Virus record (IMG/VR): IMGVR_UViG_3300042879_000370 | Coordinates: 1-34,232 of that record | Origin: a virus | Direction: 5' to 3' (one strand) | DNA length: 34,232 bases | Shown: piece after piece, positions 25,744 to 30,456 of the stretch | Numbering within the stretch: position 1 is the stretch's first letter | Layout of the letters: each line of letters starts with the position of its first letter | Notes under the pieces: model-generated | The model's input: only the letters and a program-made list of their open reading frames with translations | Database searches by the model: none | Told to the model about the DNA's origin: nothing | Made by a program: the position numbers and the translations under genes

Positions 25744-26652
25744 TTAATTCTCCAAATAACGGTGTATTGGTGTATCTGCTTCTTCAATAAACTGCTGACT
25801 CTTGTAATCAAACCATAGTTTTAACTTGCCTTCCCACTCGCCATTTCGTTGTTTTTCACAGACCAATACGGCATCCGGCACTTCTCTATCAAAATGATGT
25901 GGGTTTTCTGCAACAATCTGCGCTTTTTCCTTGTTTTTCCAAACAATGAACACATTGTCTGCCTGGTCAGTAATCGAACCTGAACCCTTTAAATCAAACT
26001 TTCCACCTATGGATTTCTCGTCACTTCCTTTTCTCATGTGATGAACTAGGTGTATATGCACTCCTGAATCCCTTGAAAGGGCGCACAAGGCGTTTACGAA
26101 GTCCTTTTGACCATTCATATCATCCTCACCCTTAACGCACTTCATAAGGCTATCTATGACGATTTGGGTAATTCCTAGTTCTGTAGTGGCATACCGGCAA
26201 ACTGCAAGCATTTGCTGAACATCAATCATCCCATGATGGTCGTATAAGTAAAGCTGGTCTTTTTTCCAGTTAGAAAAGGCTTGTGTTGCAGTAGGAGCAG
26301 GCTTTTTTTGACCTGCGGCCTGTCTTACCATTCGCGCTAAAGTAATCTCAGGGCGCATTTCAAAGCTAGCAATAAGGCACTTTTGACCCTGTTCTACTAA
26401 TCCAAGCACGACTTGACCCAATAATAACGACTTTCCATGCCCGTTTACCCCAGCCCAAAGACTGACTTCAGACGGTCTAATAGAGATATTTCTAGCCTTT
26501 TGCCAAGGTAATGCACAGCCTTTGGCGTATAAATTACCTGCAAAGTAATCATCCAAAGACCCTTGATAGTCCGATTTTTCCCTAATCTTGCGTTTAACAT
26601 TGGTTTCTTGGCTGTATTTCAACCAGTCAATATCATCCTTTTCTATAAACAT
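25744..26652 (-). CDS. Replicative helicase, DnaB/RepA-type RecA-fold ATPase
   Basis: A 302-residue protein counted from the ATG at 26652. I chose it because GGAG stands seven bases upstream; longer in-frame starts (26664, 26700) run far into the preceding gene. Walker A is GVNGHGKS at 68-75 and Walker B IVID at 164-167. HLVHHMRK at 201-208 matches the His motif (H4) of hexameric helicases. GSGSITDQADNVFIVWKN carries the late arginine/sensor region. The N-terminal primase of Twinkle or T7 gp4 is absent, so priming must come from the host. It unwinds DNA ahead of the host polymerase and is presumably loaded by the initiator encoded upstream. Confidence 0.88.
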   Translation of the reverse strand: MFIEKDDIDWLKYSQETNVKRKIREKSDYQGSLDDYFAGNLYAKGCALPWQKARNISIRPSEVSLWAGVNGHGKSLLLGQVVLGLVEQGQKCLIASFEMRPEITLARMVRQAAGQKKPAPTATQAFSNWKKDQLYLYDHHGMIDVQQMLAVCRYATTELGITQIVIDSLMKCVKGEDDMNGQKDFVNALCALSRDSGVHIHLVHHMRKGSDEKSIGGKFDLKGSGSITDQADNVFIVWKNKEKAQIVAENPHHFDREVPDAVLVCEKQRNGEWEGKLKLWFDYKSQQFIEEADTPIHRYLEN

Positions 26653-26947
26653 TAATCTCTCCATCGTTATCAAGACCGATGATTGTATTGACTTCAGCAT
26701 CTACCAAGGCAATCCACCACTTTGTAAACTGAGCAATGTCTTTAGCTGGCATTAGTTGGATGTTTAAGTCTTTAGCCCAACTCAAATCCACCAGTTTTTG
26801 ATGGTCTCTATCGTCTATCCATACCGTAGGAATAATTCCGTCAGATACATCCTTTTCTGCGTTAAAGGTCTTGCCAAACTGCACAAATACCGATTTAGGT
26901 TTGTTACCGGCCATACGCATTGCAATTATTTGATTATGTCCAATCAT
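26633..26947 (-). CDS. Hypothetical protein between initiator and helicase
   Basis: A 104-residue protein (MIGHNQIIAMRMAGNKPKSV at start, WIDDRDHQKLVDLSWAKD inside). No family recognised and no membrane segment. The repeated box GGAGTAAGTGATG supplies its ribosome binding site and fixes the ATG at 26947 rather than the GTG three bases before. The TAA inside the box is also the stop of the upstream initiator gene. It overlaps the helicase start by 20 bases. Helicase loading or inhibition would fit the location, but nothing in the sequence proves it. Confidence 0.72.
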   Translation of the reverse strand: MIGHNQIIAMRMAGNKPKSVFVQFGKTFNAEKDVSDGIIPTVWIDDRDHQKLVDLSWAKDLNIQLMPAKDIAQFTKWWIALVDAEVNTIIGLDNDGEINVYRKG

Positions 26948-26957
26948 CACTTACTCC
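26945..26957 (-). promoter_or_regulatory. Repeated initiation box, copy 4 (minus strand)
   Basis: GGAGTAAGTGATG on the minus strand. It starts the gene at 26947, and its inner TAA is the stop codon of the replication initiator. Same sequence as the three rightward copies. Confidence 0.85.
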
Positions 26958-27592
26958 CAAGGTTTTTTAGTTTGTACTGCATTTTTTGTACCACCTGAAT
27001 CTTGACACCTAGAAAGCCAACCACTTAAAAACTTGTTGTAATTGCTCTTGGTTTTGGTAGGGTTAGCTTTTAGCCATACAACTGCTTTTGATAGTTCTGC
27101 ATCAATATTTGTAGCTGGATAGGCTTTGCTCCAAAGTTCTTTTTGAGAATCATCAATATTTTCAAAACAGTTACTTTCGGCATTGAAGCTAATTGCGTTC
27201 AATGCACCCTTACCCTTCCCCTTACCCTTACCCAAGCCGTCATCTGACTGACTAATGACCGTCACTTGTCCGCAATCTGCTGACGGATACTTGCCTTTGC
27301 TTCTAACTCGTTGTTCCCATTTAAGAATTTGCAAATATGGTTTGTCATCTACTTGATAACGGATTGCTAACTCTTGTCTGACAAGTGACTGCAAATGGCT
27401 GTCAATTTTATCTAGTTTTACGCTATCTTTTAATGGATAGCAGCGTGATTTAAGTATTGGAAGCCTGGCATCCATACGACCAAAATCATCACTAACCACT
27501 AACAACCGATAAAAAAAGACTTCTTCTTCAGGTGTAAGGCCGTCTATTGCTGAGGAATCAACAATACCCTCTTTTAGTAACCTATTCGGCAT
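26951..27592 (-). CDS. Phage replication initiator / replisome organiser
   Basis: A 213-residue protein from the ATG at 27592. The N-terminal domain (about 1-105: MPNRLLKEGIVDSSAIDGLT, FYRLLVVSDDFGRMDARL, LQILKWEQRVRSKGKYPS) matches phage replication proteins that bind the origin. A central linker GKGKGKGKG (121-129) joins a C-terminal part (about 150-197) with WLKANPTKTKSNYNKFLSGW, seen in helicase-recruiting proteins. An upstream in-frame ATG (27613) has a poorer site; AAAAGG precedes 27592. The first 11 bases overlap the HNH gene. The linker DNA is a G-rich hexamer repeat that may be the origin itself, as in lambda O. Confidence 0.83.
   Translation of the reverse strand: MPNRLLKEGIVDSSAIDGLTPEEEVFFYRLLVVSDDFGRMDARLPILKSRCYPLKDSVKLDKIDSHLQSLVRQELAIRYQVDDKPYLQILKWEQRVRSKGKYPSADCGQVTVISQSDDGLGKGKGKGKGALNAISFNAESNCFENIDDSQKELWSKAYPATNIDAELSKAVVWLKANPTKTKSNYNKFLSGWLSRCQDSGGTKNAVQTKKPWE
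27207..27233 (-). repeat. G-rich hexamer repeat (GGGTAA-type), candidate origin / G-quadruplex
   Basis: Read on the minus strand, five runs of three or four G are separated by TAA, TAA, AA and TAA, i.e. nearly five tandem copies of GGGTAA with one changed unit. It lies inside the initiator gene and encodes the GKGKGKG linker. The neighbouring 27135-27200 is AT-rich. Iterons plus AT-rich DNA within an initiator gene recall the lambda origin; the G runs also meet the simple four-run rule for G-quadruplexes. Confidence 0.8.
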
Positions 27593-27989
27593 AAAATTTA
27601 GTACCTTTTTCATATCTGTATTGAAAATGTTTGCAATCTTCAGCATCGCCCCATTCAAGCATTAATTCGTAAGGTATTCCAATAGCGCCACCTATAAACC
27701 AAGCAAATTCATGCCTACTGTATGGGCCATCCATGTGGGCATAAGAACAAACTTTTTTTAAAAAATCTTCCATAGAATGTTGATGTTCATGGCAATTTTC
27801 GCAAAGTACAGCAAGTTGTTTAGGACTGTATTCCCAAGGTTCACGACCTTTAAAATATTCCTTGTGGTGAACATTTAAAGTTGATTCGCCATCACCACAT
27901 CGCTCACAATGAAAATCAGCCTTTTGCATAGCCTCAAGCCTGAGTTTTTGCCATCTAGGGTCTTTTAACTTTTCCCAATATGCACTCAT
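27582..27989 (-). CDS. HNH endonuclease (zinc-finger type)
   Basis: A 135-residue protein from the ATG at 27989, chosen because AAAGGAC lies six bases upstream; the start five codons earlier would overlap the regulator gene. Zinc ligands CERC (28-31) and CENC (63-66) flank the LNVHHKEY motif (H41, H42), and HEHQH follows: an HNH nuclease with a cross-braced Cys4 site. The C-terminal 60 residues are of unknown role. It may be a homing endonuclease or a DNA-processing enzyme of the replication unit. It overlaps the initiator start by 11 bases. Confidence 0.88.
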   Translation of the reverse strand: MSAYWEKLKDPRWQKLRLEAMQKADFHCERCGDGESTLNVHHKEYFKGREPWEYSPKQLAVLCENCHEHQHSMEDFLKKVCSYAHMDGPYSRHEFAWFIGGAIGIPYELMLEWGDAEDCKHFQYRYEKGTKFYAE

Positions 27990-27990
27990 A

Positions 27991-28191
27991 TCAGTCCTTT
28001 GCAAACAAGTCTGGTCTAAGCATTTCCTTAGTCAAGCGACCTTCTGATAGTTCTAAAATGCGTTTTAAATGCTTTATTGGCACTCTGCCCCTATCAGCCC
28101 AGTTGTAAACAGCAGATGGTCTTATTTCTAAATGTTCTGCTAACTGCGTAATACTGCCAAATTCGGCTTTTATTAAATTTAATTGGTGCAT
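27991..28191 (-). CDS. YdaS/Cro-like helix-turn-helix regulator
   Basis: A 66-residue DNA-binding protein. The segment GSITQLAEHLEIRPSAVYNW (about 12-31) is a helix-turn-helix, followed by ADRGRVPIK and a C-terminal EMLRPDLF. RGRVP and LRPD are hallmarks of the YdaS/Cro-like family. A strong GGAGG six bases ahead fixes the ATG at 28191, not the in-frame GTG at 28218. First gene of the leftward unit, facing the rightward promoter, so it probably regulates the divergent region. With no integrase here it is better seen as an early-to-late switch than as a lysogeny repressor. Confidence 0.85.
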   Translation of the reverse strand: MHQLNLIKAEFGSITQLAEHLEIRPSAVYNWADRGRVPIKHLKRILELSEGRLTKEMLRPDLFAKD

Positions 28192-28240
28192 AAATCCTCC
28201 TTTTCCACACTCTACCACAAAATGAACAAAAGTGTTGTAT

Positions 28241-28255
28241 TAGGGAAACTCCCTA
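28241..28255. promoter_or_regulatory. Inverted repeat, likely operator in the divergent control region
   Basis: TAGGGA-AAC-TCCCTA is a perfect 6-base inverted repeat with a three-base centre. It lies in the 133 bases between the divergent regulator (28191) and the first rightward gene (28325), nine bases before the -35 of the rightward promoter. Its size suits a dimeric helix-turn-helix protein, most simply the adjacent YdaS/Cro-like regulator. No second full copy was found. Confidence 0.6.
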
Positions 28256-28263
28256 TAAAATAA

Positions 28264-28293
28264 TTGAATTAAAGTAGAACATTAGTGTATAGT
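28264..28293 (+). promoter_or_regulatory. Rightward early promoter (sigma70-type)
   Basis: TTGAAT (28264-28269) and TATAGT (28288-28293) are separated by 18 bases. They match the -35 and -10 consensus at four and five of six places. Transcription would start near 28300, 25 bases before the first rightward gene. I could not find an equally good leftward promoter in this interval. Confidence 0.65.
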
Positions 28294-28314
28294 GGAGTCT
28301 AGTTCAACAGTAAA

Positions 28315-28327
28315 GGAGTAAGTGATG
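28315..28327 (+). promoter_or_regulatory. Repeated initiation box, copy 1 (GGAGTAAGTGATG)
   Basis: Ribosome binding site and start codon of the gene at 28325. The identical 13-mer starts the genes at 28696 and 30172 and, on the minus strand, 26947. Confidence 0.85.
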
Positions 28328-30082: not shown

Positions 30083-30171
30083 TAACGGGGCGAAAGCGGA
30101 TGCTATCAGCCAATTAAGTTTGTGCTTCAATGATAGATGCAGCGAGTAGCTCCACCTAATAGGAGTAAGTG
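30083..30171 (+). promoter_or_regulatory. 89-base structured leader without a gene
   Basis: The longest gap in the early unit. CTATCA (30103-30108) can pair with TGATAG (30131-30136) around an inner TTAAG (30114-30118) / CTTCAA stem with one bulge. CTCC (30150-30153) can pair with the GGAG (30162-30165) of the next ribosome binding site. It may control translation of the downstream gene or be a processing site. No tRNA pattern is seen. Confidence 0.4.
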
Positions 30172-30174
30172 ATG
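30162..30174 (+). promoter_or_regulatory. Repeated initiation box, copy 3 (GGAGTAAGTGATG)
   Basis: Ribosome binding site and ATG of the secreted-protein gene at 30172. The only copy that is not attached to a preceding gene but to a structured leader. Confidence 0.85.
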
Positions 30175-30456
30175 AAAGAACTGATTATTTTTCTAGTAGG
30201 ATTTACCATTGGCGGTTGGGCCGTGCAGTCAGAAGCACAAACTTATGTCATAACTAACCCACAAGGTTATAGCCAAGGAACTGTACAAGTACAAGGTAAC
30301 CAGGCGCAGGTCGTAAACAATGCAGGCTACATAACTCAAACCTTGACTATTTACCCCAATCAAGTTGTAACCCCACAAGGGTACGCCATTGGAACTCCTA
30401 GCTATACAGTCCCATCCGTACCCATGTCACCCCCATCCCCAAGGGTGCTGCAATGA
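30172..30456 (+). CDS. Secreted or membrane-anchored small protein
   Basis: A 94-residue protein with an N-terminal hydrophobic segment (KELIIFLVGFTIGGWAVQSE) and a likely signal-peptidase site after SEAQ. The rest is Gln/Val/Tyr/Pro rich (TNPQGYSQGTVQVQGNQAQV) and ends with PP-rich residues. No family recognised. Expected in the periplasm or held in the inner membrane. Early expression suggests a role at the host envelope, e.g. superinfection exclusion, which is only a guess. Confidence 0.65.
   Translation: MKELIIFLVGFTIGGWAVQSEAQTYVITNPQGYSQGTVQVQGNQAQVVNNAGYITQTLTIYPNQVVTPQGYAIGTPSYTVPSVPMSPPSPRVLQ

Follow-up and report, generated by a model that had tools for sequence, protein, structure and literature searches.

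A short GGGTAA repeat lies in the middle of the replication initiator gene of a virus whose DNA, a stretch of 34,232 nucleotides (hereafter the window), was analysed, and the question it raises is whether this repeat is simply the coding sequence of a protein linker or a DNA element in its own right. A sequence-only reading had described five G runs at 27207-27233 of the minus strand, and these were found exactly as described, as GGG TAA GGG TAA GGGG AA GGG TAA GGG T. The minus strand at 27206-27233 reads GGGTAAGGGTAAGGGGAAGGGTAAGGGT, a short tandem array with a period of 6 (GGGTAA GGGTAA GGGGAA GGGTAA GGGT) that encodes GKGKGKGKG and holds one G3+ quadruplex motif. The pattern (GGGNNN)3GGG has a single occurrence in the window, and it appeared in 0/100 dinucleotide-preserving shuffles (mean 0.00). 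The repeat had been called telomere-like, which is apt for the sequence resemblance and for nothing beyond it. When a repeat finder was run over the whole early region, it returned two-copy families at chance level only.

The array is located inside the ORF at 26951-27658 of the minus strand, between two predicted domains, and indeed codes for the Gly-Lys linker of the initiator. This ORF of 235 aa is the longest version of the gene and matches PHROG 5810, 'replication initiation protein', in a profile search (E 7.3e-16, residues 23-129, N-terminal domain). The true start is probably at 27592, because the relatives begin at the conserved sequence MPNRLLKEG, so that the gene would span 26951-27592 (minus strand) and encode 213 aa. 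An AlphaFold model, built from 27 sequences, has an N-domain of helices and strands (residues ~1-103) and a helical C-domain (residues ~135-200). The DNA of the low-confidence linker between them (residues 108-131, pLDDT <50, predicted to be disordered), at 27200-27271 of the minus strand, nearly coincides with the array and the boxes discussed below. A Pfam search of the initiator did not find an AAA+ domain, and the RepA_N Pfam domain was not found either, with matches considered up to E 1 for the window protein and up to E 0.1 for the relatives. A PDB sequence search with the initiator gave no match, and the PDB fold matches, among them an initiator N-terminal domain and a Rep-DNA complex, were weak (E 0.02-0.2). 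Further along the operon, downstream of the initiator, lies a gene for a DnaB-like helicase (25744-26700, minus strand; Pfam DnaB_C, E 1.3e-13; PHROG 239/19), which is the likely loading target of the initiator, and the gene between the two (26633-26950, minus strand) encodes a 105-aa protein without a Pfam or PHROG family match. Directly upstream of the initiator is an HNH endonuclease gene (27582-28004, minus strand, profile match), and phages Louie, Mx8, and Mwe-JY08 likewise have an HNH gene adjoining the initiator or close to it.

The simplest explanation would be a low-complexity protein linker and nothing else, in which case either selection for a flexible, charged linker or neutral slippage would have produced the repeat as a side effect. 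Low-complexity linkers are common, this one is predicted to be disordered, and the homogeneous units of one relative (L182) suggest that slippage takes part. However, the close relatives vary in their residues and keep the DNA unit. The 18 distinct linkers of the window subgroup have the peptide GXGXGX, in which X can be K, L, M, V, R, W, E, S, N, Y, or G, and the codons for X end in G in 112/119 cases, whereas the residues, together with the codon usage of these genes, would predict 44.2 (z 14.9); elsewhere in the genes, third-base G accounts for only 20%. The GGG columns are invariant in the alignment of close relatives, and L182 has methionine (ATG) in every unit with all G runs intact (GGGTAT). 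Relatives that keep the residues and break the G runs had been put forward as the outcome that would speak against a role for the DNA; what the close relatives show is the reverse, with varying residues and constant G runs. Judged from these alignments, it is the DNA rather than the peptide that is conserved in close relatives, and conservation beyond the need for Gly-Lys codons is further borne out by shifts of reading frame and strand in other relatives.

To keep the linker from biasing the result, remoter relatives were searched with the N-domain alone (A1, A2), which yielded 160 loci in IMG/VR and 38 in bacterial genomes, most of them Clostridia. At the same place, these carry arrays of AATCC (period 5), AATCCG or AATCCT (period 6), CGAGAAT (period 7), and GGGAA (period 5). 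Periods of 5 and 7 are not codon multiples, and these arrays are therefore no simple peptide repeats. AATCC words occurred in frames 0, 1, and 2 in 144, 150, and 61 cases, with all three frames used in 43/57 genes, and GGGAA words in 99, 89, and 70 cases, with all three frames used in 42/55 genes; consequently, AATCCG is read as NPNPNP in one phage and as ESESES in another. With array anchors defined after inspecting the sequences, and in relatives that share descent and hence are not independent, arrays with a score of at least 12 were present in 40/57 and 47/62 dereplicated initiators (70-76%) versus 3/325 and 3/332 neighbouring ORFs (~1%), which were other ORFs of 150-430 aa from the same loci. 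The arrays begin approximately halfway along the initiator ORF, and the result was replicated in Clostridial prophages and in named phages. The threshold was missed by about a quarter to a third of the initiators, in many of which the array is short or degenerate, and a minority was without a clear array (L268, L318, L330, L335). A linker that is nothing but protein is difficult to reconcile with a conserved DNA unit that is read as GK, GM, GL, NP, ES, NPIQS, PL, PT, or EG, with the third-base G and the three-frame use of the array words, with the rarity of arrays in neighbouring ORFs, and with the phased dyad boxes that adjoin the array, and we consider this explanation highly improbable.

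The stretch of interest in fact reaches 27276, with boxes spaced by 11 bp located 5' of the repeat. From 27276 down to 27233 on the minus strand, four 11-bp boxes directly precede the array, ATTGCGGACAA, GTGACGGTCAT, TAGTCAGTCAG, and ATGACGGCTTG, which are supported by the lag-11 self-match in the window, by that in the subgroup, and by the alignment. On their own, the boxes of the window are modest (lag-11 self-match 0.46, top 1% of 50-nt windows), and the case for them therefore rests on the relatives. The box consensus TGNCNGNCA alone was not significantly enriched in the window (10 versus 7.4 expected). In the 50 nt upstream of the array, lag 11 was dominant in the window subgroup (0.503 versus 0.265, z 9.4, with only half of the modules individually above the 99th control percentile), in A2 (0.419, z 7.7), and in group D (0.554, z 6.5), and lag 10, with 20, was dominant in the Clostridial group (0.535, z 14.7) and in bacterial genomes (0.504, z 16.8); some groups also had a few smaller lags (5, 6, 9, 20) above the null. 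Perfect 8-bp palindromes are ~3-11 fold enriched in the boxes. Individual modules illustrate this layout: L181 has ATGACGGACAA TTGACAGACAA TTGTCAGACAG ATGACGGCTTG followed by GGTAAG, L212 has TGATATCATC TGATATCAAA TGCAATCAAC TGCAATCAAA followed by CGAGAAT, L259 has CCACGCGTCGG repeated and then GGGAAGGG, L342 has TCAACGGTTGG CCAACCGTTGG TCAACGGTTCT and then TACCCTTACCC, and L337 has ATGCCGCGGCA repeated and then CCCTTACCC. The periodicity of an amphipathic helix (10.8 nt) was rejected as the cause of the box spacing in view of the predicted disorder, the self-match of ~0.5 at one main lag, and the palindrome enrichment. There is a second possible cluster of 11-bp-spaced boxes, TTGACAGCCAT TTGCAGTCACT TGTCAGACAAG, at 27370-27410 of the minus strand in the part of the initiator gene that codes for the N-domain, and in L205 the array is followed downstream by another series of TTGTCAGACAA-like boxes and another short G-rich linker.

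Another explanation is that a G-quadruplex, formed by DNA or mRNA, is what works here, by stalling or timing the fork, by marking the origin or by regulating translation of the initiator. The array certainly scores well with a G-quadruplex predictor (G4Hunter 1.86), as had been anticipated from its G runs, and the canonical G3+ motif is present in 18/18 near relatives, that is, the window subgroup, and in 29/62 A2 genes. Yet only 1/73 of the remoter Clostridial-type genes has the motif, despite having the same module at the same place with arrays of AATCC, AATCCG, and CGAGAAT that lack G3 runs, and the quadruplex is therefore not the shared principle; as a general rule, the proposal that it is the working element is unsupported. 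Moreover, the G-rich strand is the coding strand in some families and the template in others, which disfavours a general role through mRNA or an R-loop. Altogether, a working quadruplex seems quite unlikely to us; going by the repeat units of the different groups, the capacity to form one is probably a by-product of the unit used in this lineage, within which folding may occur. A further G-rich stretch (C-rich on the plus strand; G4Hunter -1.92) was noticed at 30416-30441 of the minus strand, where the ORF at 30169-30456 codes for its proline-rich end.

Similar arrays were found in other initiator families. When IMG/VR was scanned at the DNA level for GGGTAAGGGTAAGGGNAAGGG, 37 stretches were returned, 18 of which are inside replication-initiator genes: nine belong to the window's family, including some near-identical viruses, and nine ORFs belong to other PHROGs (L021, L022, L026, L028, L035, L038, L043, L050, and L055, with L026, L035/L038, and L055 assigned via the same loci under the labels L344, L348, and L342), which comprise replication initiators, replisome organizers, and DnaD-like loaders. 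L021, L026, and L055 have the G-rich strand as template, which gives PLPLPL in the protein. Since roughly half of the matches were unrelated, being structural or noncoding, the repeat by itself does not identify an initiator. GGGTAA arrays outside clear long ORFs were seen in L020, L046, L047, L049, and L052, with a long (GGGTAA)n in L047. A broad scan for (GGGNNN)4GGG returned mostly GC-rich and low-complexity sequence, yet initiators matched again when inspected by eye (L059, L110, L112, L125). As to named phages, Mycobacterium phage Bernal13 has TCGCGAGACA-like boxes at 11 bp and then GGAACAGG repeated, and Psychrobacillus phage PVJ1 has ATACAGTATCG boxes and then AAGAGAA repeated. Arrays with less clear boxes occur in Microcystis phage Mwe-JY08 (CCCTAA), VvAW1, Azospirillum phage Cd, Austintatious, HK639, yong1, and Louie.

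The N-domain and the module stay together when the remainder of the protein changes. In 8 relatives of the window initiator, the N-domain is 80-83% identical and the C-domain only ~10-14% identical, with the linker as the swap point, so that N-domain and module travel together. Compared to the window, L186 and L190-L197 have C-domains exchanged at the linker and nearly identical N-domains. The tandem array may itself serve as a recombination joint for this exchange. The joint inheritance bears on a further alternative, namely that boxes and array are not an origin but a site for autoregulation (a transcription roadblock involving the initiator or another protein), packaging or partition. Boxes of this kind can be operators, but their retention with the N-domain while the C-domain changes, and their placement in the middle of the initiator gene, which agrees with that of proven origins such as the iterons of lambda O, the annotated origin in P22 gene 18, and SPP1 oriL in gene 38 (PMC6316719), make a non-origin site unlikely. 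From the comparisons described above, and from the gene order that joins initiators to a helicase or a loader, we consider it likely that the 71 bp at 27206-27276 constitute a two-part replication origin of the phage, placed within its initiator gene where the linker is encoded. The earlier suggestion that the initiator gene holds a candidate origin between the parts for its two domains, in a lambda-like layout, is well supported by the DNA-level repeat, the frame and strand changes, and the phased dyad boxes.

How such an origin would work can be outlined by analogy. The four dyad boxes, one helical turn apart, would be bound as duplex DNA, most likely by the N-domain of the initiator, given their dyads and the example of lambda O (PMC7466680). 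The short tandem repeat would be a second origin element, most likely for opening the strands and gripping one of them, and the C-terminal domain would then deliver the DnaB-like helicase encoded downstream. The Gly-Lys linker would be of low complexity because both DNA parts, readable as protein, sit where the protein needs no structure. Relative to the boxes, the G-rich strand is oriented oppositely in different families, and any strand preference would therefore be family-specific.

Intragenic origins in initiator genes are already known for lambda, P22 (where the record annotation places the origin in gene 18), SPP1, and several plasmids (PMC6316719; PMC3155836). Lambda O and the lambdoid origins, including those of P22 and Stx phages, also have repeated sites in the middle of the initiator coding sequence, between two domains, and extra iterons lengthen the lambda-type O protein (PMC7466680). 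However, the four iterons of lambda measure 18 bp each, are spaced by 20-24 bp, and are succeeded by an AT-rich tract (PMC7466680), whereas here the boxes recur every 10-11 bp and lead into a tandem array of 5-8 bp units, and no AT-rich tract is consistently present. The lambda-like order of initiator and loader genes is exact in HK639, and a P-like or DnaC-like helicase loader gene comes next after the initiator in HK639, F10, Mx8, and Louie. SPP1, likened here by description, has the direct repeats for its initiator gp38 within the initiator's own gene, at oriL (PMC6316719), but differs in that an AT-rich unwinding element adjoins them. RepA_N-type plasmid replicons such as pAD1 and pSK41 have an origin with iterons inside the initiator gene (PMC3155836), and the V. 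cholerae PLE satellite, in which the RepA_N N-domain and the origin covary and the C-domain is separate (PMC8263062), resembles the module described here. Nevertheless, the initiator here lacks the RepA_N Pfam domain, and the pTZ2162/pSK41 iterons are described as semi-palindromic with 9- and 8-bp repeats (PMC7145576), with no description there of turn-spaced boxes plus a 5-7 bp array. A functional analogy is with the bacterial DnaA boxes and DnaA-trios, in which duplex-binding boxes adjoin a short tandem repeat, the single-strand binding here being hypothetical. DnaA-trios are 3-nt units recognised by DnaA (PMC10797057), with the sequence 3'-G/AAT-5' beside a DnaA box, whereas the units here are 5-8 nt with another sequence, and the initiator is without an AAA+ domain. 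In the open-licence literature, intragenic iterons are known for lambda, SPP1, and plasmids, and neither the two-part pairing of boxes spaced by 10-11 bp with an array of 5-8 bp units, nor its occurrence in several initiator families, nor the explanation of low-complexity linkers was found there.

By the same analogy, turn-spaced dyad boxes and a tandem repeat of 5-8 nt in the disordered linker of otherwise different initiators could represent a widespread, undescribed origin design of tailed phages, in which duplex docking is followed by single-strand engagement; this generalization is tentative and somewhat less probable than its opposite. Mapped origins are known for very few phages. If the design is real, the low-complexity linkers of phage initiators would be a readable map of phage origins, and a low-complexity linker together with phased boxes would then predict the origin within ~100 bp in phages of Proteobacteria, Actinobacteria, Firmicutes, and cyanobacteria. 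It would also explain the GKGKGK, EGEGEG, PLPLPL, NPNPNP, and ESESES linkers of phage initiators, which are seemingly meaningless as protein repeats, provide a testable non-AAA+ counterpart to the DnaA-box/DnaA-trio mechanism, and supply a swap point for the evolution of phage replication modules, with N-domain and origin kept and the C-domain exchanged.

Base composition around the array was also compared. The sequence-only reading had placed the repeat beside AT-rich DNA, which holds mildly for the window (GC 0.33-0.35 over 40-120 nt downstream versus 0.42 overall) but not for the relatives, as a consistent AT-rich tract beside the array was not found across their groups. Among the 3-kb flanks of the relatives, a clear step in GC skew was limited to the window subgroup (n=8, from 0.00 to 0.12), in which the divergent promoter is a confounder, and the small group D (n=4). 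GC skew was set aside as an origin test, since in the window it tracks gene direction and reaches its local minimum at the divergent promoter region near 28,300. This divergent early promoter region, at 28219-28320, contains the inverted repeat AGGGAAACTCCCT, which likely represents operators.
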